A stretch of 53,952 bases of DNA, taken from positions 1-53,952 of IMG/VR virus record IMGVR_UViG_3300048997_000104; one strand, given 5' to 3'. Position 1 is the first letter of the stretch, and the number at the start of each line of letters is the position of its first letter. The notes under the pieces are model-generated. The model saw nothing but the letters and a program-made list of their open reading frames with translations. It had not been told where the DNA came from and did no database searches. The position numbers and the translations under genes were made by a program. This DNA is from a virus. Positions 1 to 53,952 of the stretch are shown here, piece after piece.

Positions 1-1
1 G

Positions 2-499
2 CTGGCCGACGTATTGGCGCGTTACACACCCATCGCGGACTTGGTAGGATCAGGCCCCTACAACGTGTCCTCGGTGAATGTGAACTCGGTGTATATCTCA
101 GACGCCGAGAGTTACATTGACGCTTTCCTGAGCGTCAAGTATGTGACGCCCATTACGCCGGTCAGCCCGCTGATCACTATGATTGCCAGCGATCTTGCCA
201 TCTTCCACCTGCTGAGTGAGAAGCTACCGACTGTCCCTGAGTTCATGGACAAGCGGTTCGCGCGGGCAAACGACATTCTGACCAAGCTCCGCGATGGCAA
301 GATGCAGCTGGTTGCCAGCGTCCAGGTGTCGTCGCACGGCGACAGCTTTGCCTGGTCCAGCACCCAGCAGTATCATCCCATCTTCTCGCCTGTCTTGCCG
401 GAGACCATGCAGCGGCCTGACAGCATTCGCGTCAGCGATGATGAGGGTGTTCGCGCCAACGACATTCCGCCGCTTGACGGAAACGAACTGATCGGCTGA
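2..499 (+). CDS. Head-completion protein, DUF1320 / Mu gp36-like (5' end is at the other end of the contig)
   Basis: The reading frame is open from base 2. Its true start is the ATG at 53785, in the copy of this sequence at the window's far end, giving an N-terminus MSYATLADVLARY. The segment running SYIDAFLSVKYVTPI followed by a hydrophobic LITMIASDLAIFHLL helix is typical of the DUF1320 (Mu gp36) family, small proteins at the head-tail junction. It follows the capsid and glycosyltransferase genes on the circular map and its stop (499) overlaps the next start, so it is translationally coupled. Role as connector is inferred from family and position. Confidence 0.75.
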   Translation: MADVLARYTPIADLVGSGPYNVSSVNVNSVYISDAESYIDAFLSVKYVTPITPVSPLITMIASDLAIFHLLSEKLPTVPEFMDKRFARANDILTKLRDGKMQLVASVQVSSHGDSFAWSSTQQYHPIFSPVLPETMQRPDSIRVSDDEGVRANDIPPLDGNELIG

Positions 500-1008
500 T
501 GCCAGTCACCATCGATGACGATAACCTGAAGCGGTCCATCAGGGACTTGTCGGCCATCATTGGCGAGACGGCACCCATCTACCTTGAGATTGGGCGTTAC
601 CTGAAAGGGTATGTCCAGCAGACCATCGAGCGCGGCGGGCGCAGCGAGCCATGGGCTCCGCTGTCGGTCTGGACTTCCCTGCGTACGGGTCGGACCCAGC
701 CGCTCATCACCTTGGCTCAAGGGATAGACTTTGGCGCGTCTGAGAACGGCGTTGAGGTGTTCTTCCGCTCGCCGTCGCCTGCCTGGAACCTGACGCAACA
801 CCATGAGGGATACATCACCCGCGAGCGATGGGGTCGCCCGGTAATGGTCGTCCCCACCCAGGGCTTTGGCAAGATATTCTTCAGGCACGCGAAGCAGTCG
901 GTGATACCGGCAAGACCCGTCTGGCCGACAGCCGAGGAGATCACTCCTATGGTATCGCAGATGGTCGCTGATTGGATTCAAAAGGGAGCTGTCAGCACAT
1001 GGCGCTAG
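499..1008 (+). CDS. Virion morphogenesis protein, Mu gpG-like
   Basis: 169 aa. The ATG overlaps the upstream stop (TGATG). An N-terminal helical stretch is followed by 'GRSEPWAPLS' and an 'LITLAQGIDF' segment, which resembles the phage virion morphogenesis family (Mu gpG and relatives) involved in head-tail joining or tail completion. It lies between the DUF1320 protein and the tail terminator, the usual place for this family. The assignment rests on pattern and gene order and is moderately secure; a minor tail or neck protein is the alternative. Confidence 0.6.
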   Translation: MPVTIDDDNLKRSIRDLSAIIGETAPIYLEIGRYLKGYVQQTIERGGRSEPWAPLSVWTSLRTGRTQPLITLAQGIDFGASENGVEVFFRSPSPAWNLTQHHEGYITRERWGRPVMVVPTQGFGKIFFRHAKQSVIPARPVWPTAEEITPMVSQMVADWIQKGAVSTWR

Positions 1009-1448
1009 ACTACTCTGGCATCCAGCAGGCTCTGGCCGACTTGCTGACGCCTGCCACGATCCCAGGCCTGCGCAAGACGTTCATCGAGGCCATGGAGCGC
1101 GACATGCTCCTGGACAACTCGCCATTCGTCAACGTGCGGTTGGTCGAGGAAGATTGGGAGATGGTTTCTCTCCCGAATGGGTACTACAGCAAGATGCTTT
1201 TCGAGGTAGATGTCGTCGCATTTCACTTTACGAAGTACGGCGATGCGGCTACACTACGCGATCAGCTGGTTGGGGTTATCAAAGACGTGTTGCGGACTAC
1301 GGCAAATCGACGGTTCCACGCGTCCTTGTCCACGTCCATGCTTGTAGGGCGTACCAAGTTCGGGGCACTAGTTCCACCTCACGGCGGCGGGCACGTCGCT
1401 CTGGCGACATTCCAAGTGCGTTGCGAAGCAGACATCGACGCACTGTAA
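999..1448 (+). CDS. Probable tail terminator / tail-completion protein
   Basis: 149 aa from the ATG at 999, preceded by a GGGAG-type Shine-Dalgarno sequence inside the upstream gene and overlapping its end by 10 bp. The protein is a mixed alpha/beta domain with alternating beta strands such as 'YYSKMLFEVDVVAFHF' and 'ATFQVRCEADI' near the C-terminus, as in gpU/gp17-type tail terminators that cap the tube before head joining. Its place directly before the tail tube gene supports this. No single diagnostic motif is visible. Confidence 0.55.
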   Translation: MALDYSGIQQALADLLTPATIPGLRKTFIEAMERDMLLDNSPFVNVRLVEEDWEMVSLPNGYYSKMLFEVDVVAFHFTKYGDAATLRDQLVGVIKDVLRTTANRRFHASLSTSMLVGRTKFGALVPPHGGGHVALATFQVRCEADIDAL

Positions 1449-1463
1449 CCGGGAGTTCAGAGA

Positions 1464-2546
1464 ATGCCTTCAGGCAGCGGCGGTCAAATCGGCGTCACTC
1501 GCTCGGACAGCCTGTACCTCTCGGTGCAGTCGGTCAATCAGTGGACCAACTTCGTGTCGGAGTCACTGGAGCACTCCATCGGCACCTTGATCGAAGGCGC
1601 CATCACTGGCTACAAGGATGAGCCGCCAGCGTACAAGGGCACCGAGGAGGGCAAGGGCGACATCAAGCTGGAGCCCAATCCCAATGCCTTCGGCCACTTC
1701 CTGCGCGGCGTCTTTGGCCAGTCCAGCGGCACCATTCTGATCGCTGCCGGCTCCTGGGGCGTCAACAGCGGCAATGCGCTGAACATCGGGCCTGATGGCC
1801 TCGCGCGGCCTGTCGCGATGCACCGCTTCCTCCCCGTCAACTCGGGCTGGGATGACCGGACGTTCCTGCCGCCGTACACGGCCATGGTCTACAAGGACGT
1901 TGGCTCGGCGTTCTTCTTCCAGGGCACTGTGTTCACCGCCATCGACCTGAACATCCAAGCGGGCAAGTTGGTCGAAGCGACCGCCACAGTCATGGCGCGC
2001 AAGGTCGAGCGGTATGCTCGTACCACGTCCATCTCGGCGCTCAAGAACCCTGGCGGCAAGCCATGGATTTTCGACATGACGTCGGTCCAGGTCAGCAGCG
2101 GCGGCACCGGCTTCGCCAGCCTCCTGGCGGACACCCATTATGAGCAACTCCAGGTCAAGCTGGAAGTCCCCATCCAGGGCGTCCTGCTTCTGGACGGCAA
2201 TCGCCAGTATGGCGAGTTCCAGATCAACGGCTTCCGCAAGCTGACGGTCAGCGGCACCGTTTCGTTCCGCGACCAGACGCAGTATGACGCCTTCACCGCC
2301 TATCTGGCGCGGTCTATGCGCATCACGCTGTACAATACCAACTCGGACCAGATCATCGGCAACCCGAGCAGCCAGCAGCTCTTTGGGCTTGAGATCGACA
2401 TCCCTCAGCTCAAGTACCTGACATGGAGCACGCCGATCAGCGGCCCGAACCGTCTCACGACCAAGTTCACCGCCAAGGGGGAGCTGGATCAGAACTCGCT
2501 GTACATCTGCGAGATGCGCCTGATCAACACCACCTCGGCCTACTGA
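1464..2546 (+). CDS. Major tail (tube) protein
   Basis: 360 aa, starting 15 bp after the previous stop. It is a beta-rich protein with repeated short strands, Gly/Ser turns and few charged clusters. It sits directly before the tail-assembly chaperone pair and tape measure, the classical slot of the tube subunit in long-tailed phages. The C-terminal half ('GEFQINGFRKLTVSGTVSF') has the tube-like beta pattern. It is longer than the lambda V protein (about 250 aa), so an extra surface domain may be fused. Assigned mainly by gene order. Confidence 0.7.
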   Translation: MPSGSGGQIGVTRSDSLYLSVQSVNQWTNFVSESLEHSIGTLIEGAITGYKDEPPAYKGTEEGKGDIKLEPNPNAFGHFLRGVFGQSSGTILIAAGSWGVNSGNALNIGPDGLARPVAMHRFLPVNSGWDDRTFLPPYTAMVYKDVGSAFFFQGTVFTAIDLNIQAGKLVEATATVMARKVERYARTTSISALKNPGGKPWIFDMTSVQVSSGGTGFASLLADTHYEQLQVKLEVPIQGVLLLDGNRQYGEFQINGFRKLTVSGTVSFRDQTQYDAFTAYLARSMRITLYNTNSDQIIGNPSSQQLFGLEIDIPQLKYLTWSTPISGPNRLTTKFTAKGELDQNSLYICEMRLINTTSAY

Positions 2547-2555
2547 GGAGAGCAA

Positions 2556-2777
2556 ATGAGCTTCAGTTTCTCGTGTCGGTTCGCCAAGGCAACGGCCAAG
2601 CAAGAGGTTGACTTGGCCGCTCTGCCGAAGCCGATCAAGGACTATATCCAGCTGGCCATCGACCAGTATGGCGATGACGTCATCCTCGATGTCTATGTGT
2701 ACGGTCATCTGTACGATGGCACGGTCAACAACTACAACGTGTCGAGCGCGACCATCTCAGTCAAGCCCGCCGTCTAA
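2556..2777 (+). CDS. Small hypothetical protein between tail tube and chaperone genes
   Basis: 73 aa with start ATG at 2556 and 'GAGGAG' just upstream. A central segment 'PKPIKDYIQLAIDQYGDDVILDVYVYGHLYDG' combines a helix with beta strands. No family recognised. Co-directional position between the tube gene and the tail-assembly chaperones suggests a tail accessory role, but that is inference only. Confidence 0.65.
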   Translation: MSFSFSCRFAKATAKQEVDLAALPKPIKDYIQLAIDQYGDDVILDVYVYGHLYDGTVNNYNVSSATISVKPAV

Positions 2778-2782
2778 GAGAT

Positions 2783-2845
2783 GACTGGCGCGGAGTGCTC
2801 GCCGAGCCGGGGACCACAGGAGATGCCCTGCCCTGCGCGCCAGTC
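2783..2845 (+). other. Long-range stem-loop upstream of the tail chaperone gene
   Basis: GACTGGCGCG (2783-2792) and CGCGCCAGTC (2836-2845) are perfect 10-bp complements flanking a 43-nt loop in the gap between 2777 and the chaperone start at 2889. There is no T-run after it, so it is not a standard terminator. It may shape mRNA processing or translation in the leader. Sequence seen directly; function inferred. Confidence 0.5.
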
Positions 2846-2888
2846 ACTTAATCGTCATCAACGCCGTGCATTAACAAAGGGGCACAAG

Positions 2889-3260
2889 ATGAAGTACGCA
2901 TTCTCTCGGTCGGTGAAGTTCGTTCCCACCTGGAATGAAAACGAGAAGCTGCCCGAGAAGGACCAAGTGTCTTTCATGCTGAAGCCGTTGGAGCTTGAAG
3001 ACCTGTTCCTCCTGATGGATGCCACGCAAAGCGGCGATGGCAGCCAGGCTGGCAACCTGCAGCGCGTCAAGGGCGTGGTCGTGAACGTCGGCCATCTGCT
3101 GCCCAAGTACGCAACCATGAGCGGCTTGACCGATCCCGATGGGAGCGATATCACCATCGCTGATCTGGTCGTCTATCCGACATTCCTGAACCTGGCGTCG
3201 GAAGTGCTCATGAAGCTCGCCAACATTTCCATGCCCTCGGAGGCAACCTCGGGAAACTAA
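2889..3260 (+). CDS. Tail assembly chaperone, short (G-like) product
   Basis: 123 aa, starting at the ATG at 2889, which follows the AGGGGCAC ribosome binding site at 2878-2885. The frame stays open upstream to an ATG at 2781, but that codon has no spaced Shine-Dalgarno sequence. The protein is acidic and helical and sits directly before the tape measure, as do lambda gpG-type chaperones that coat the tape measure during tail assembly. The decisive evidence is a -1 slippery heptamer GGGAAAC at 3251-3257 ending immediately before the stop TAA, which leads into an open downstream frame. Confidence 0.8.
   Translation: MKYAFSRSVKFVPTWNENEKLPEKDQVSFMLKPLELEDLFLLMDATQSGDGSQAGNLQRVKGVVVNVGHLLPKYATMSGLTDPDGSDITIADLVVYPTFLNLASEVLMKLANISMPSEATSGN
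3251..3257 (+). other. Programmed -1 ribosomal frameshift site GGGAAAC
   Basis: In the zero frame the codons are TCG GGA AAC TAA. The heptamer G GGA AAC fits X XXY YYZ exactly, and both tRNAs can re-pair after a -1 slip. The -1 frame is open from here to 3520. Lambda uses GGGAAAG in the equivalent gene pair. The site is directly visible; use in vivo is inferred from family precedent. Confidence 0.85.
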
Positions 3261-3520
3261 GGCAGGCAACTCGGTTTGCTGCGCATCACTCCTCGCAGCA
3301 TTTGCTCTCCGAGTTGCCGACTGAGCAAAGGTCAGCCCACTTCTACCTTGCTTGGTTCTTTCGGATTTTTCAGCCAAATGACACCGGATGGTGGCCAGTG
3401 GAGTTGCCTAATGGGCGCCCCATTGGCCGCCAAGATGCCTACTTCTGGCGCTGCCTTGAGACCATCGCATCGACCATGAATGAGATGCGGATCGAGGAAA
3501 TGGAGAAGCTGAGGAGATAG
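3257..3520 (+). CDS. Tail assembly chaperone, frameshift extension (T-like domain)
   Basis: This frame has no convincing independent ribosome binding site and is continuous with the chaperone after a -1 slip. The joined product runs 2889-3257 then 3257-3520, about 210 aa. The extension is rich in aromatic residues ('HFYLAWFFRIF', 'GWWPVELPNGRP') and ends in a helical 'NEMRIEEMEKLRR'. In lambda, the GT fusion recruits the tube protein to the tape measure. It ends 2 bp before the tape-measure start. Translation by frameshifting is inferred from the slippery site and open frame. Confidence 0.8.
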   Translation, partial: LRQATRFAAHHSSQHLLSELPTEQRSAHFYLAWFFRIFQPNDTGWWPVELPNGRPIGRQDAYFWRCLETIASTMNEMRIEEMEKLRR

Positions 3521-3522
3521 GT

Positions 3523-6500
3523 ATGGCCGGATCATTGATTCCTTCCTCCAACGTCGGCATCACGGTCACAGTAAACAACGCGCAGGCCCAGCAAGCCTTC
3601 GCGGCGATGGCGCCTGCCATCCAGCAGCTTGAGCAGCGGATCAATAGCCTCAGCTCCGGCTTCCTGTCATTGGAGAACGTCCTCAAGGCGTTTGCCATTG
3701 GCACTCTGTTTGAGATGGGCAAGCAATTCATCGAGATGGCTGCCTCGATGGAGCGGCTGCAAACGTCGCTGGGGATTTTGGACGGCAGCACTCAGCAGGC
3801 GGCGAGTACGATCACTCAGCTTGTGAGTGTTGCCGGCAAAGCGCCGTTCTCGCTCAATGCCATCACCGACGCCTTCATGAAGATGAAGAGCGCCGGCATC
3901 GACCCGATCACCGGCGCGGACGGCAGCGGCCCGCTCCAAGACCTGATCGATGCCGTCGCGGCCTTCGGCGGCAGCGAGCAGAAGTTCCACAACGCCGCGT
4001 TCGCCATTCAGGAAATTGGCGGCAAGGGCGTGGTGCAGATGAAGGAATTGCGTCGCCAGCTGGGCGATGCGATCCCGTCTGCCATCCAGTTGATGGCCGA
4101 GGGAATGGGCATCTCCATTTCCGAATTGACGGCCCGCGTCACCAAAGGCTCTGTGAGCGCTGAGGAGGGCCTCACTGCCCTGTTCGAGCAATTCCATGCC
4201 AAGTATGCCGGCGCGGCCGATCTTCTGTCGCTCACCTTCACCGGCTCGATTGGCCGCATCAAGACAGAGATCAACAACCTCGCCCTATCGTTCAATTCAG
4301 CGGGCGGGCTTGACATATTCACAGCTGCGCTCCAGTTCATCATCGACAAGCTGAAGGAGCTGAACACCTACCTGTCAAGCAGTGACGGGCAGGCGATGCT
4401 GCACAGCTTCATCAATGCCATCGCCAGCGGCCTCGATGTTGTTGTGCCGATCATCGGCAACGTCATCACCGTCATCGAGAATATCGGCAAGGTCATCCTC
4501 GGCGTCCTTGGCGCTCTCCCACCGGCGATGGTTGCTGGCGGCGTCGTCGGCTACATGATGTTCGGCAGCGCAGGCCTTGTCATCGGCGCGCTCGTGGCGC
4601 AGTTCTCTGGCGGCATCGCCGAGCTGTCTGGCCAAATTCAAGGCTTCATCACCAGCACGCTTTCCTTCCTCCATTCCTTTGGTGGCGACTACATTCTTGA
4701 GGCCGGTTTGATCGGCTATATGCTGTTTGGCACGACCGGGCTGGTTGTGTTTGCGGCGGCAGAGCTACTTGACCAGTTGGCTGGATCGCTGGTGGCAGTG
4801 GTTGGCTACGCCGCAGCCTCGGCGGCTGCCGTGGTCATTATGGCGGTCGATGCCGCTCACTTCAAGATGACCAGCTTCGCCGACGCGCAGAAGGATGCTT
4901 TCAATAAGATCGGCGGCAAGAACAGCTTTGACCAGATGGGCGACAAGGGCCTCATCCGAGGCCTGAGTGCCGGCAACACGCCGCTCGATACGTCGCCAGC
5001 GGCGGCGGAAGGTGATGCGGCTGCGACCGCCACGCCTAAGTTGAACTCGGCAGGCGATGCCTTCAAGGCGATGATTGACAAGATCGTCAGCGCCCGCAAG
5101 CAGTATGACGATCAGTTCGGCAAGAAGCCTGACGCCTTTGGCGGCCCGACCGACGCGCAAGCCAAGCAGATCGAGAAGTTCACCGAGCTGTCCATGGCAG
5201 CCTCGGACAAGCTCGACAGCATGCAGACGAACAACAACCCGCTTGCCAAGATGGAGGATAAGGCAGGGCGCGGCTTTGATCAGATGCAGGCCATCCTCGA
5301 TGACATGACCGCGAAGCTGGAGAAGTTCGCGGCGGCAGGCGATGCCAACAAGGTTGCCGGTTACACGAAGGAAATTGCCTCACTGACGGTGCAGATGCAG
5401 GCGCTCCGCGAGACGCTTGGCCAGTTGGAGCAGACCAGCAACGACAAGATCACGACCGATGTGCAAGCCAAGGTCGCGCAGATGCGGTCGATGCTGGATG
5501 CGTCGTCCGCCAAGACCGACCAAGGCACGGTGGACTTTGCCGGCGCGGAAGCGTCCAAGAAGTTCCAGAGCAGCTACACCGAACTTGGGAAGCTGCGCCA
5601 AGAGATTGATGGATACATCGGTGATCTGGGAAAGCTGCACATCACCGAAGATGATCTGAATAAGCTGGAGAAAGACCTCAACACTACGCGTGACCGGGCC
5701 ATCGTCGTTGCCAGGGATTTGGCGCAGATCAAGCTGCAAGAGCGCGACTTAGCGATGCAGAGCCACCTTGCCGATACGGCAAGCAAGGGCAATGATCTGG
5801 AGTTTGCCAACAAATACGACAAGGCAGGTGAGGCCGTCGCCAAGGTCAACGACCAATATCGCCATATGTTTGAACAAATCAACAAGGAGATTTTGGACGC
5901 CCAGGCGGCGATGGAGCAGAACCCTGCCCAGGCCGATATGTACCAAGGCATCATCGACAGCCTCAAGGCATCGCGCGATCAGATTGCCGCGACCCAGGCT
6001 GACACCGTCAACCGCACGCTGTATGAGACCAGTCTCGTCGGCCAAGCTTGGAAGTCAGTCGGCGCAACCATCGACAGCAGCCTCTCGACTGTCCTCCAGG
6101 GTCTGGCGAACAACACGCTCAACCTCAAAGACGTCATGACGAAGATGTACGCCGACATCACCAAGGCGGCGGCGGATTACATCGTCAAGGCAGCCGAGGC
6201 GGCGATGTTTGGCAACATGGGCGGCTCTGGCTTCAATCTGTTCGGAGCGACGGGCGGCGCCAGCGGCGCCAACTCCGACAGCGCGCTTATGAGCATGGGC
6301 TCCACGTTGATGAGCTTCTTCGCCGCCAACGGCGGTGCCTTCAACGGCTCTGTCAAGATGTTTGCCAATGGCGGATTGATTGGCGGCCCGACGATGTTTG
6401 GCATCGCGGGTGAGGCCGGTAAAGAGGCAATTCTGCCGCTTGAGACGGTGGGTGGTAAGCTGGGCGTGCGCTCTGTCGGTGGCCAGTCCGGTGATACCCA

Positions 6501-6621
6501 CTTCCATATCAATGCGCTAGACGCCCCATCTGTCCGCGAGCTACTATTGCGTGAAGCGCCGACCATTGTGGCTGCTCACCAATCGCGCCAGCGGCTCAAT
6601 AGTGGAGTGGGCAGAGTATGA
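3523..6621 (+). CDS. Tape measure protein
   Basis: 1032 aa, ATG at 3523 with GAGGAG upstream. The N-terminal third carries the classic tape-measure region ('QFIEMAASMERLQTSLGIL', 'PFSLNAITDAFMKMKSAGID', 'GGKGVVQMKELRRQLGDAIP'). It is followed by long hydrophobic segments near residues 315-440, likely membrane-active during DNA entry. A long coiled-coil-rich Ala/Lys/Gln region follows, then a Gly-rich C-terminus with the 'GEAGKEAILPLE' motif common in tape measures. At roughly 0.15 nm per residue the length predicts a tail near 150 nm. It follows the frameshifting chaperone pair, the invariant order in long-tailed phages. Confidence 0.95.
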   Translation: MAGSLIPSSNVGITVTVNNAQAQQAFAAMAPAIQQLEQRINSLSSGFLSLENVLKAFAIGTLFEMGKQFIEMAASMERLQTSLGILDGSTQQAASTITQLVSVAGKAPFSLNAITDAFMKMKSAGIDPITGADGSGPLQDLIDAVAAFGGSEQKFHNAAFAIQEIGGKGVVQMKELRRQLGDAIPSAIQLMAEGMGISISELTARVTKGSVSAEEGLTALFEQFHAKYAGAADLLSLTFTGSIGRIKTEINNLALSFNSAGGLDIFTAALQFIIDKLKELNTYLSSSDGQAMLHSFINAIASGLDVVVPIIGNVITVIENIGKVILGVLGALPPAMVAGGVVGYMMFGSAGLVIGALVAQFSGGIAELSGQIQGFITSTLSFLHSFGGDYILEAGLIGYMLFGTTGLVVFAAAELLDQLAGSLVAVVGYAAASAAAVVIMAVDAAHFKMTSFADAQKDAFNKIGGKNSFDQMGDKGLIRGLSAGNTPLDTSPAAAEGDAAATATPKLNSAGDAFKAMIDKIVSARKQYDDQFGKKPDAFGGPTDAQAKQIEKFTELSMAASDKLDSMQTNNNPLAKMEDKAGRGFDQMQAILDDMTAKLEKFAAAGDANKVAGYTKEIASLTVQMQALRETLGQLEQTSNDKITTDVQAKVAQMRSMLDASSAKTDQGTVDFAGAEASKKFQSSYTELGKLRQEIDGYIGDLGKLHITEDDLNKLEKDLNTTRDRAIVVARDLAQIKLQERDLAMQSHLADTASKGNDLEFANKYDKAGEAVAKVNDQYRHMFEQINKEILDAQAAMEQNPAQADMYQGIIDSLKASRDQIAATQADTVNRTLYETSLVGQAWKSVGATIDSSLSTVLQGLANNTLNLKDVMTKMYADITKAAADYIVKAAEAAMFGNMGGSGFNLFGATGGASGANSDSALMSMGSTLMSFFAANGGAFNGSVKMFANGGLIGGPTMFGIAGEAGKEAILPLETVGGKLGVRSVGGQSGDTHFHINALDAPSVRELLLREAPTIVAAHQSRQRLNSGVGRV

Positions 6622-15373: not shown

Positions 15374-15409
15374 AGGGGCACATCGACCTACTGTAACTAG
15401 GAGGGGCAC
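15374..15409 (+). repeat. Duplicated ribosome-binding element before the endolysin
   Basis: Two imperfect copies of CTGTAA-CTAGG-GGGCACAT occur in the 61-bp holin-endolysin gap. AGGGGCAC lies at 15374-15381 and again at 15402-15409. The second is followed directly by the ATG of the endolysin, and the first by ATC. The first could be a decoy ribosome site or a remnant of a small duplication. Confidence 0.55.
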
Positions 15410-49777: not shown

Positions 49778-50755
49778 ATGCCGGCACCGTCAACTGGCCG
49801 TGACCTTCACGTCGATGTCCCCCTATCCAATGTGGTGGTGGGTCGTCGGCCGGAAGGCTTCATTGCCGACCGCTTCATCCCCATCACGAATGTGGATAAG
49901 CAGTCGAACATGTACTACAAGTTCTTCCACGGCGAGTGGCGGCGTTTCGAGGCCGGTCTCACCTACCGTGCACCGTCGACCAATGCCCGCAAGGTCCACA
50001 TGCGGGTGTCCTCGGACAACTACTTCGCGCCCAACTATGCGCTGGGCACGGACTGGCCCGTGGAAGATGAGGTCAATGCCGACGCCGTGCTCAACTGGGC
50101 GCAGTCGCAGGCTCTGTTCCTCACCGATCGCCTGGCGATGGACTACGAGGTGCGGCTGGCTCAGCTCGCCGTCAACTCCTCCAACGTCCGCACCGTCACC
50201 TACTGCGGCTCCGCCATGTGGTGGACCGGCAGCGCCAATATCATCTCGGACCTGCTGACGCTCAAGGAGAATTTCCGTCAAGCGACGGGCTTGCTCCCGA
50301 ACCGTCTGATCATTCCCGAGAACGCGCGCCGCTACATCACGATCAACACCCAAGTCCGCCAAATCATCTTCGGCAACAACAATCCGGGCATGGCGACCCT
50401 GGAGCAGATCGCCGCGCTCATCGGCATCAGCGATGTCCTCAACCCGTCGGTGCTCGTGAACACCTTCGGCGAGACGGACACCGAGAACAACAGCTTCTCG
50501 CTGTTCGATGTCTGGGGCCGCGACAGCATCTGGATGGCCAAGGTCGACACCCTGGCCGGCCAATTCACCGACACCTGGATCAATGCCTTCCGCTGGACCA
50601 ATCCGGCGCTCGGCGTTCCGATGGCGGTTCAGCGCTATCCGTTCGATCCACGCCGGAAGTGCTACGAGCTGGAAGTGGGCTACTACCAGGCCGAGAAGGT
50701 CGTCAGCTCGGACTTGGCGGTGCGCATCATCGTCAACAGCGGAAACGCTGGCTAA
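49778..50755 (+). CDS. Major capsid protein
   Basis: 325 aa, directly downstream of the decoration gene. 'NVVVGRRPEGFIADRFIPI', 'DWPVEDEVNADAVLNWAQSQALFLTDRL' and the C-terminal 'VGYYQAEKVVSSDLAVRIIVNSGNAG' follow the HK97-fold layout (N-arm, spine helix, A-domain) of Mu-like capsid proteins. Highest codon bias of the window, fitting the most abundant protein. Confidence 0.85.
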   Translation: MPAPSTGRDLHVDVPLSNVVVGRRPEGFIADRFIPITNVDKQSNMYYKFFHGEWRRFEAGLTYRAPSTNARKVHMRVSSDNYFAPNYALGTDWPVEDEVNADAVLNWAQSQALFLTDRLAMDYEVRLAQLAVNSSNVRTVTYCGSAMWWTGSANIISDLLTLKENFRQATGLLPNRLIIPENARRYITINTQVRQIIFGNNNPGMATLEQIAALIGISDVLNPSVLVNTFGETDTENNSFSLFDVWGRDSIWMAKVDTLAGQFTDTWINAFRWTNPALGVPMAVQRYPFDPRRKCYELEVGYYQAEKVVSSDLAVRIIVNSGNAG

Positions 50756-50766
50756 TCGAATCAGTC

Positions 50767-50796
50767 GCCGGGGTTGGGCACGACCCTGGCTTCTGT
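50767..50796 (+). terminator. Hairpin after the capsid gene
   Basis: GCCGGGGT (50767-50774) and ACCCTGGC (50783-50790) form an 8-bp stem including one G-T pair, followed by TTCTGT. It may partially terminate transcription so that the glycosyltransferase gene is expressed less than the capsid gene. Confidence 0.4.
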
Positions 50797-50824
50797 CCCT
50801 ACCACCGGCGCGCGTATGGTGTAG

Positions 50825-50884
50825 AGGGCGACTTCTGGTTGGTGCCCCTTCCAGTCGTCGCCCTCGCCACATAAGGGGCACATT
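50825..50884 (+). promoter_or_regulatory. Potential H-type pseudoknot overlapping the ribosome binding site
   Basis: AGGGCGAC...CTGG (50825-50838) pairs with CCAG...GTCGCCCT (50851-50864). The 12-nt loop contains GTGCCCCTT (50842-50850), the exact reverse complement of AAGGGGCAC (50873-50881), the ribosome site of the gene at 50885. Loop-RBS pairing would form an H-type pseudoknot with no nucleotide between the two stems at their junction and would hide the ribosome site. Confidence 0.65.
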
Positions 50885-53788
50885 ATGGAAATCGCAATCG
50901 TCGCTGGAGGAATGCCCTTCAGCAATCTCACGCTCGACAAGTTCTCGCTTGGCGGCTCCGAGACAGCCGTCATTGCCGTAGCCCGCGAGCTACGCAAACG
51001 CAAGCACATCGTGAACGTGTTCTGCCCGTTGCCTCCCGAGGGCCGCGCTGATTTCGTGCACCCCGGTAGCATCGATGATTTGGGCATCCGCTGGATGGCG
51101 CTGGAGCAATATCCCGCTTTCATCCAACACACCGAGGTTGACCTGCTCGTGGTCAGCCGCCAGCCTGAGCTGATGGCCGTCAACCACCAGGCGCGCAAGG
51201 CGGTGCTCTGGGTCCACGATCTGGCGACCCACACCTATACGGTGCCGACGCTCACGCCGGTGGGCTTCAATTTCGATGAAGTCTGGACGGTGTCCGAGTA
51301 TCATCGCCAGCAGTACCACAAGGTGACCGGCTATCCGCTGGAGAACATCCGTGCAACGCGGAATGGCGCGCTGCCGTACGAGACGCTGGACATGGAACTG
51401 CGCAATGACAAGCAGCTGCTCTATGCAGCGCGGCCCGAGCGCGGCCTGGAGAGCTTGGTCAGACCGGGCGGGATTATGTCGCGCCTGCCGGAGTTCAAGT
51501 TGCTCATCACTATGTATGACAACTTCCCAGAGCAGCTGCGTGATTATTACGGCCAGCTGTTCCAGTGGGCGCAGGAGCGCGGCAACTGCGAAGTGCTTGG
51601 CCCTAAGAGCCAGAGCGAACTGCGCCAACTGATGAAGGACAGCAAGCTCTATGTCTACCCGACCAATTTCGAGGAGGTCAGCTGCATCATTGCGCGGGAG
51701 TGCATGTCGGCAGGGTTGCCGATGGTCACGACGGGCCATGGCGCGCTCACCGAAACTCTCGCTGGCTGTGGTCACATTGTGGACAATGGCGACTATGGCA
51801 GCGACGAGTTCTGCGAACGGTTCGCCGAACAAGTGCGTGCCCTCTCCGAAGATGACGCGCGATGCGCCTGGTACCAGGAGCGTGCAGCCGAGCGCACCGA
51901 CCTTGGCTGGGAAGGTGTGGCGGAACAATGGGAAAGCTGGGCTGATCCTGCCCCTGTCAAGCCGTTTTCCCGCATCTGGTCGTTGATCGAGGACAGCGAC
52001 GTTGTTCCTGCCATTGCTTTCGCTCAGGCTATCCCCCTTGAGGAGCGGACGCGGGGCGTGGCTCACATGATCTCGGAGCTGGAAAGGCTGTATCCTTACC
52101 TGTACGGGCGCGAAACCTTTGCCGCGTACTATGAAAGGTACTTCAAGGACAACCAAGACCCCAGGGAAGCGCGCAAAAAGCCCAATATGGAGGGCAATCC
52201 ACGCTTCGAGGCCATTGCCCAGTTCGTTTCCGAGCTGCCGGATGAGTCGTCAATCCTCGACTATGGCTGCGCGGAGGGCGTGATCATCCTCGGCCTGGCC
52301 AAGCGGTTCCCGAACAAGCACTTCAGCGGCGTCGATTTCGCCCAGAGCAACATCGATCTGTGCCGTAAGTACGCAGCTGAGGACGGTCTCACGAACGTCG
52401 AGTTCAGTTGCGAGCATACAGAGAACATCGGCGTATTCCTCACGCCCTATGAGGGCTACGATGCGGTTATCTGCTCTGAGGTCTTGGAGCACGTTGCCGA
52501 GCCGTGGTACCTGCTGGCCTTCCTTGAGGCCCGCGTCGAGAAGGGTGGGATGGTAATCACGACCGTGCCGCAAGGCCCCTGGGAGGCCATCGGCTTGTAC
52601 GAGGAGAACCAGTATGAGTGGCGCGCTCATATCTGGCATATCAACAAATGGATGCTGCGCAAGATGCTCGCGGACAAAGAGAACCCGCGCATGACCAGTC
52701 TCACGAACGGCCACTCGCGTGACGGTCGCATCCTCGGCCACCTCTGCTTCGTCTACAAGGCAGACCACAAGACGGTCCACGCCATCGACCCGGTGGAGAA
52801 GGCGCTACAGCATCGCTCGCGGCAGAGCGTCGCCGCAGCAATCATCGCCAAGGACAGCGCCGAGACCATCCTCAAGATGCTTAACAGCCTGGGGGATCAA
52901 GTCCAGCAAGTCCAGGTGGCGCTCGCCGACAGCTCCGACGACACCGCCCAGATCATCCATCAGTGGGCGTCGCACAAGCCCTGGATCAAGACCCAGGTCA
53001 TCAACGTGCCTGCCGTGGAGCCAAAGCAGTTCGGGTTCGATGACGCGCGCAACGCGAGCATCCTCGGCCTCGACACGGACTGGATCGTGTGGATCGACAC
53101 GGACGAATATCTGTCTGGCGACATCCGCAAGTACGCGCGTGGCAATGCCTTCCACAGCTACGCGATCCATCAGCACCACTTCACTGTGGAGCCGCGCGGC
53201 GGCGCAGTCCAGCTCGACAAGCCTGCGCGTATGTTCCGCAACAATGGCCGGTTCCAGTTCTTTGGAAAGGTCCACGAGCATGCTGAACTCGGTGAGAATG
53301 GCGGCCCTGGTTTTTGCTTTATCCTTCCTGATGTGGACCTGGGTCACATCGGGTATGTCAATGAAGACGTGCGAAGGGGGCGTTTCAATCGGAACTTCCC
53401 ACTCCTGGTTTGGGATCGTGAGGTATACCCAGAGCGTCGCCTGGGGAAATTCCTGTGGCTGAGGGACATCATCCACCGGATGCGCTATGCGGCGATGCAG
53501 CGCGATATTGGTTCCGCTCGACTTCTCGCTGAAGAGGCACTATCCTTCTACAAGGAACATTGCTCGGCAGAGGGCGGCATTGGCGTCGGCGATGGCAACG
53601 ACATCGGCTATGTGACCGAGGCCCGCGAACTGCTCGGGCGCGGCGTGAAGGTCGAGATGATGGTGCGCATCGACGGCTCTGAGGCGCTGGTGTCCGGCAT
53701 CTTTGAGGATGAAGAGGAGGCAGCCAAGATCATCAAGAAGATGGTCAAAGCTCCTCTCGACAAGCGCAGGAGTGGCTATTACCAATGA
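50885..53788 (+). CDS. Trifunctional fusion: GT4 glycosyltransferase, SAM methyltransferase, GT2 glycosyltransferase
   Basis: 967 aa. Domain 1 (1-380) is a GT-B glycosyltransferase: 'FSLGGSET' near the N-terminus and E264-x7-E272 in 'FEEVSCIIARE'. Domain 2 (about 430-610) is a class I methyltransferase: 'ILDYGCAEG' motif I (D459), 'CSEVLEHV' motif IV. Domain 3 (about 645-967) is a GT2/GT-A fold: 'VAAAIIAKDSAETI', D738-T-D740 in 'WIVWIDTDEYL', and a C-terminal 'KVHEHAEL' segment. It sits between capsid and neck genes, so the target may be a virion protein; this is inferred. The stop overlaps the next start (ATGA). Confidence 0.9.
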   Translation: MEIAIVAGGMPFSNLTLDKFSLGGSETAVIAVARELRKRKHIVNVFCPLPPEGRADFVHPGSIDDLGIRWMALEQYPAFIQHTEVDLLVVSRQPELMAVNHQARKAVLWVHDLATHTYTVPTLTPVGFNFDEVWTVSEYHRQQYHKVTGYPLENIRATRNGALPYETLDMELRNDKQLLYAARPERGLESLVRPGGIMSRLPEFKLLITMYDNFPEQLRDYYGQLFQWAQERGNCEVLGPKSQSELRQLMKDSKLYVYPTNFEEVSCIIARECMSAGLPMVTTGHGALTETLAGCGHIVDNGDYGSDEFCERFAEQVRALSEDDARCAWYQERAAERTDLGWEGVAEQWESWADPAPVKPFSRIWSLIEDSDVVPAIAFAQAIPLEERTRGVAHMISELERLYPYLYGRETFAAYYERYFKDNQDPREARKKPNMEGNPRFEAIAQFVSELPDESSILDYGCAEGVIILGLAKRFPNKHFSGVDFAQSNIDLCRKYAAEDGLTNVEFSCEHTENIGVFLTPYEGYDAVICSEVLEHVAEPWYLLAFLEARVEKGGMVITTVPQGPWEAIGLYEENQYEWRAHIWHINKWMLRKMLADKENPRMTSLTNGHSRDGRILGHLCFVYKADHKTVHAIDPVEKALQHRSRQSVAAAIIAKDSAETILKMLNSLGDQVQQVQVALADSSDDTAQIIHQWASHKPWIKTQVINVPAVEPKQFGFDDARNASILGLDTDWIVWIDTDEYLSGDIRKYARGNAFHSYAIHQHHFTVEPRGGAVQLDKPARMFRNNGRFQFFGKVHEHAELGENGGPGFCFILPDVDLGHIGYVNEDVRRGRFNRNFPLLVWDREVYPERRLGKFLWLRDIIHRMRYAAMQRDIGSARLLAEEALSFYKEHCSAEGGIGVGDGNDIGYVTEARELLGRGVKVEMMVRIDGSEALVSGIFEDEEEAAKIIKKMVKAPLDKRRSGYYQ

Positions 53789-53952
53789 GCTATGCGACGC
53801 TGGCCGACGTATTGGCGCGTTACACACCCATCGCGGACTTGGTAGGATCAGGCCCCTACAACGTGTCCTCGGTGAATGTGAACTCGGTGTATATCTCAGA
53901 CGCCGAGAGTTACATTGACGCTTTTCTGAGCGTCAAGTATGTGACGCCCATT
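53785..53952 (+). CDS. 5' part of the DUF1320 head-completion gene (continues at base 2)
   Basis: Starts with the ATG overlapping the previous stop. It duplicates bases 1-154 apart from one C/T difference at 127/53925, a synonymous third-codon-position change (Phe). This is the same gene as the feature at base 2, split by the contig ends. Confidence 0.8.
   Translation, partial: MSYATLADVLARYTPIADLVGSGPYNVSSVNVNSVYISDAESYIDAFLSVKYVTPI
53799..53952 (+). repeat. Terminal overlap, identical to bases 1-154 except one base
   Basis: The 154-base overlap lies inside a coding gene and matches the window start, as expected for an assembly of a circular or circularly permuted molecule. A true physical terminal repeat would be unlikely inside a gene at exactly this assembler-style length. 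Confidence 0.9.

Follow-up and report, generated by a model that had tools for sequence, protein, structure and literature searches.

The locus analyzed here raises the question of what the 129-nt gap between the major capsid protein gene and the enzyme gene behind it, with its ATG at 50885, does for the translation of the latter. The window, i.e., the whole 53,952-nucleotide stretch of the virus record IMGVR_UViG_3300048997_000104, shares with its close relatives, all uncultivated siphophages, an arrangement in which the same fusion-enzyme gene comes after the capsid gene (Table 1); that this enzyme decorates the capsid is a guess. The original prediction, made from the letters of the window, placed an RBS-sequestering pseudoknot in this gap. 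Relatives were gathered by means of the capsid protein, which yielded seven viral contigs, and 48 loci once an alignment was used as the query, and by means of the enzyme, which yielded 12 and 21 loci, many of them on the same contigs as those from the capsid search. No named phage gave a nucleotide match to the window region, and the protein relatives in named phages are distant only (about 24% for the capsid); the enzyme search of bacterial genomes returned none. As for the record itself, the gene order across 53788-53952 and 1-6621 suggests a circular permutation: the structural genes at the window end resume at its start (a tail protein at 1464, family a at 2889 and the tape measure at 3523), with a spacing across the end and start that resembles that of one relative.

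Table 1. Features of the capsid–enzyme gap and its flanking genes in the window
Feature	Coordinates	Strand	Basis
Major capsid protein gene, upstream neighbor	49778..50755	+	ORF; PHROG 1005 major head protein, E 2e-38
Hairpin H1 with RBS-mimic loop: GCCGGGGT [TGGGCACG] ACCCTGGC	50767..50790	+	Strongest hairpin after the capsid stop; covarying stem
Stem 1, 5′ arm	50824..50838	+	Read directly; covariation among leaders
Anti-RBS strand GTGCCCCTT in the stem-1 loop (5′ strand of putative pseudoknot helix 2)	50842..50850	+	Exact complement of 50873-50881; kept in 17 leaders, two compensated changes
Stem 1, 3′ arm	50851..50865	+	Read directly; covariation among leaders
Weak RBS hairpin H3: CATAA [GGGGCACA] TTATG, RBS in the loop and ATG in the stem	50870..50887	+	Summed strength over 17 leaders
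RBS AAGGGGCAC (3′ strand of putative pseudoknot helix 2)	50873..50881	+	Read directly; conserved among leaders
Putatively controlled gene, encoding a 967-aa fusion protein with GT4-like glycosyltransferase, SAM methyltransferase and GT2 glycosyltransferase parts	50885..53788	+	Pfam, PHROGs; orthologues in examined relatives

The interrupted 12-bp stem of the original prediction can be read in the window sequence as 12-13 bp: an outer helix of AGGGCGAC (50825-50832) with GTCGCCCT (50857-50864), to which G50824-C50865 can be added, is followed, beyond a TT/TC 2x2 internal loop, by an inner helix of CTGG (50835-50838) with CCAG (50851-50854). The loop of this stem (50839-50850) consists of TTG and GTGCCCCTT, and the latter is, as had been claimed, the exact reverse complement of the RBS AAGGGGCAC. 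The order of the strands is likewise as described, running from stem 1 through its loop and back through stem 1 to an 8-nt linker (CGCCACAT) and the RBS, which is separated from the ATG by a spacer of 3 nt; helix 2 would abut the 3′ arm of stem 1 with a gap of 0 nt, in agreement with the claim that no nucleotide intervenes between the two stems at their junction. Folded alone, the leader is stable (z -3.5) with stem 1 present, nested folding being unable to display a pseudoknot. What did not hold was the estimate of about 1 in 2000 for a chance match of 9 nt in the gap, which is too low: with the RBS held fixed and the gap shuffled by dinucleotides, the probability is 0.0015 for that 9-mer and 0.005 for a 9-nt complement to any part of the 16-nt RBS region. 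Such a chance figure is weak by itself because each genome has many leaders; the match goes beyond chance because it is conserved in 17 leaders of the same gene.

Indeed, the element is found, with the same order of stem 1, anti-RBS loop, stem 1, linker and RBS, in the leaders of orthologous genes from the window, L002, L003, L004, L021-L028, L030, L032, L035, L036 and L098 (L027 also representing L029 and L031). The 7-bp loop–RBS helix is intact in 15 of these 17, G-U pairs counted, and both L027 and L098 retain six of the seven pairs, with one mismatch each. The loop–RBS arrangement is real and conserved. Homologues that keep the RBS and have lost the loop complement, which had been named as the outcome that would speak against the proposal, were not seen among the 17 leaders. 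Tests of the longest complement leader by leader are weak when taken alone, as their perfect-match criterion ignores G-U pairs. L005, L033, L037 and L038 have neither the stem-1 loop nor the RBS motif and use other RBS sequences; in L033, which lies inside an element-bearing clade, the hairpin and the RBS motif have been lost together. L034 may carry a diverged form with, by eye, a C-rich loop and a GGGGG RBS.

The covariation in homologous leaders that had been put forward as a check was recovered, with stem 1 covarying at every aligned pair and the loop–RBS helix displaying two compensated double changes. The alignment comprises blocks from 16 leaders (5 outer and 4 inner stem-1 pairs, the 7-nt loop strand and the 7-nt RBS); the blocks of L024, which the automatic spacing pattern did not capture, were located separately, and those of L030 are the same as those of L028. 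With the paired blocks placed by hand, so that the paired percentages lean towards structure, 144/144 cells of stem 1 are paired, with 9/9 pairs changed on both sides, and 110/112 cells of the loop–RBS helix (98.2%) are paired, with two pairs changed on both sides; over all cells 99.2% are paired, as against 77.5% when shuffled and 35-48% when the partner is displaced by 1-3 columns. One of the compensated double changes, GTGCCCT/AGGGCAC, is seen in L021-L023, which belong to one clade, and the other, ATGCCCC/GGGGCAT, in L035, which belongs to a different one: in the capsid tree the window groups with L021-L024, and L035 with L004 and L033. Further RBS variants, GGGGCAT (L004 and L036) and GGGGTAC (the L002 type), involve G-U pairs. 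As read from this alignment, the loop–RBS helix is supported by few independent changes and its covariation is less rich than that of stem 1; moreover, other genes are also preceded by the RBS motif, whose conservation may therefore be due in part to something else.

The geometry of the element lends further support to the predicted H-type pseudoknot. A hairpin loop can pair with a downstream strand, there is covariation in both helices, and the second junction, from the loop strand to the 3′ arm of stem 1, measures 0-2 nt, which permits coaxial stacking, in 14 of the 15 leaders measured (4 nt in L004; L024 was not parsed). Loop 1 has 1-4 nt in most leaders and loop 3 has 8-21 nt; the latter is tight in L022 and L023, where, going by the dimensions of an A-form helix, the 8 nt available to span a stem 1 of 16-18 bp would be barely enough for a single H-type fold. 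The Shine–Dalgarno (SD) sequence is itself one strand of the proposed regulatory helix, the RBS core ending 1-6 nt, mostly 3-4, before the start codon, and the loop–RBS duplex has predicted energies of -10 to -17.6 kcal/mol, versus -4.2 to -10 for the RBS with the 16S tail. That 17 different phages retain the arrangement even as the letters of the hairpin vary indicates that the element before the enzyme gene is almost certainly a real control element and that it probably holds down or times enzyme production. Our preferred reading, to which we assign a probability of about 0.72, is that of a cis-acting, SD-sequestering H-type pseudoknot limiting translation of the enzyme. Stem 1 would display the anti-SD strand GUGCCCC in its loop, which would pair with the RBS GGGGCAC to give the pseudoknot; this would bar the 30S subunit from the start site and keep enzyme output far below that of the capsid protein encoded just upstream. 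Both the formation of this fold in vivo and its repressive action are what we infer from the patterns described above.

Three aspects of the locus are additions to the original prediction: hairpin H1, the hairpin at the RBS, and an RBS motif that other genes share. H1 carries a GGGCAC (50776-50781) that can pair with the GTGCCC of the stem-1 loop. It starts 4-11 nt after the capsid stop and is the strongest hairpin there in eight leaders (the window, L004, L021-L024, L035 and L098), and its stem covaries at 6/6 pairs. The loop reads GGGCAC, with GGGCAT found only in L035, the one phage with the ATGCCCC anti-RBS loop, and by sequence it could form a pairing with the anti-RBS loop that is roughly as good as that of the RBS. 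In the remaining element-bearing leaders a terminator-like hairpin takes the place of H1, in most cases together with a TATAAT-like promoter, and the enzyme gene there thus seems to have a transcript to itself. H1 may accordingly matter only if one transcript covers both capsid and enzyme, a link to be read as a hint only: the terminator-like flag is crude, since the stem may take up T bases, and a second Fisher test beside it uses counts entered by eye. In L002, L003, L025-L028, L030 and L032, the order upstream of stem 1 is a terminator-like hairpin and then a TATAAT-like promoter, and most of these eight leaders have a 5′ hairpin with TGATC in its loop between promoter and stem 1.

The likeliest role of H1, at somewhat less than even odds, is that of a competitor for the anti-RBS strand, which would make a two-state switch that responds to ribosomes as they terminate at the capsid stop. 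Where the leader is co-transcribed with the capsid gene, the H1 loop would take the anti-RBS strand by loop–loop pairing and the RBS would be freed. More doubtful is a full three-hairpin switch, in which the anti-RBS loop would choose between the enzyme RBS and H1, and ribosomes finishing the capsid gene would open H1 and so set enzyme translation. The phage MS2 is an RNA phage, and its long-range duplex lies within the coat gene, unlike the competing hairpin of the window phage, which follows the capsid stop and whose role in coupling is a hypothesis. The likeness is to the coat–replicase coupling of MS2, where a start after the coat gene is hidden by an RNA pairing that coat translation can alter (PMC9894550).

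The RBS hairpin, present in many leaders but weak in single cases, exceeds all of 1000 flank shuffles when its strength is summed over the 17 leaders. None is present in L004, L027 and L036; examples elsewhere are GTGTA[GGGG]TACAC in L002 and TTTGCA[GGGG]TGCAAA in L026, and in five promoter-type leaders the GGGGTAC change of the RBS suits this small hairpin at least as well as it does the pseudoknot. The RBS motif itself has a wider distribution: GGGGCAC lies at 2879, 15375, 15403, 18259, 32160 and 50875 of the window, 0-5 nt before several gene starts, with the copy at 15375 a second one 28 nt upstream of that at 15403. In its general form, RGGGCAY, it precedes the genes of families a (window 2889), b (32168), c (18271) and d (15410), of which a and b keep it in relatives, and it may be an RBS motif used by multiple genes. 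In the leader of family a (2790-2891, ATG at 2889), a CTGGCGCG/CGCGCCAG hairpin encloses TGCCCTGCCC, which is partly complementary to that gene's own GGGGCAC RBS; this is not so in relatives. When 1,585 start sites from eight phage records were searched without presupposing GTGCCC, 8 matched, and 6 of these are the enzyme leader, one per phage. In a pattern scan before the other genes of the viral contigs, the matches outside the enzyme gene family were chance-like and had no proper stem 1, and no convincing case of the same architecture was found before other genes of these phages. Thus, across the sites searched, the RBS motif is not peculiar to the enzyme gene and the complementary loop is.

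This distribution bears on the most serious rival to the pseudoknot, a protein or antisense regulon acting on GGGCAC. A trans-acting RNA-binding protein of phage or host might read GGGCAC as a translational operator, in a RegA-like or coat-operator-like regulon with sites at the enzyme RBS, the H1 loop and the RBSs of other genes, stem 1 modulating access to just one of them. Such a protein would be in keeping with the presence of RGGGCAY at the RBS of family a, the gene between the tail protein and the tape measure, in most of 8 phages and at that of family b in 4/4, with tandem copies of the motif (15375 and 15403 in the window, L036, and family a in the L023 phage) and with its display in the loops of H1 and H3. 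However, GG plus GCAC may be merely the usual SD style of this group of phages, families c and d have the motif in some phages only, and a protein operator leaves unexplained both the compensated changes and a GUGCCCY loop kept only before the enzyme gene; we consider it unlikely. The antisense version, in which the stem-1 loop would act in trans on the GGGCAC ribosome sites of several phage mRNAs in addition to its action in cis, draws on the fact that within these genomes the anti-RBS core also complements the family a and b RBSs, and on the dedicated TATAAT-type promoter right before stem 1 in some relatives. Yet the RBSs of other genes did not consistently track the changes in the loop or the glycosyltransferase RBS (the L035 phage has AGGGCAT for family a and AGGGCAC for another gene, and the L002-type phages differ), and a separate RNA end is not predicted, leaving this version with a slim chance.

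Stem 1 might instead be a transcription attenuator or terminator, or a hairpin for RNA processing or stability, with the loop–RBS complement secondary. There are U-runs a few bases past stem 1 in L026, L028 and L030 and true terminators within the gap in many relatives, but no such run follows stem 1 in the window and most leaders, the promoter-type leaders already have a separate terminator and promoter upstream, and the kept anti-RBS loop would go unexplained; we regard this reading as improbable. For the window, where the gap has no U-run after stem 1 and neither a terminator nor a promoter was found, a terminator reading was rejected. Least probable is a small-molecule riboswitch (e.g., for SAM, SAH or a nucleotide sugar) with an H-type pseudoknot that includes the RBS, for although the topology is shared with preQ1-I and SAM-II and one domain of the enzyme is a SAM-dependent methyltransferase, stem 1 varies freely and the unpaired loops 1 and 3 differ in length and sequence between clades, without the conserved unpaired bases of a pocket, which argues against a small-molecule pocket, and Rfam gave no match at the gathering score for the window or for 11 relatives and no relevant weak match for the window at a permissive threshold.

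The sequestering pseudoknot that we favor has partial parallels in known systems. Conserved and covarying RBS-sequestering pseudoknots that lack a metabolite pocket seem rare in dsDNA phages, where the T4 gene 32 element is the best documented pseudoknot operator. At the T4 genes e, soc, 49 and I-TevI, unlike at the window element, the structures are simple helices that are not known to include an apical-loop pseudoknot or to be accompanied by an upstream mimic hairpin. What these genes would have in common with the window phage is an SD hidden by mRNA structure, limiting or timing a late product (PMC3014915). The gene 32 operator is closer as a leader pseudoknot of a dsDNA phage that is linked to translation control, but it lies ~67 nt upstream as the gp32 nucleation site with the RBS outside (PMC3014915), whereas in the window phage the RBS itself would be a pseudoknot strand. 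A review of 2010 considered the T4-type case possibly the sole viral pseudoknot used for translational autoregulation (PMC3014915). The type III preQ1-I and preQ1-III riboswitches resemble the proposed fold in that an anti-SD/SD pseudoknot helix hides the ribosome site, the SD of the preQ1-III 3′ tail being the docking site for a hairpin loop (PMC11625349); unlike them, the phage element shows no ligand pocket, conserved loop bases or Rfam match and precedes a gene of the phage structural region. Our search of the literature, with coverage short of all journals, found no description of the element.

The element is short, a broad range of phages retain it at the same gene position, and natural variants of it exist, with or without the mimic hairpin and with or without a promoter of its own. 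If the three-hairpin switch is true, it would be an RNA-only sensor of capsid translation in dsDNA phages. The ratio of a capsid-linked modifying enzyme to the capsid protein, which the element would help to set, is directly testable with reporters.
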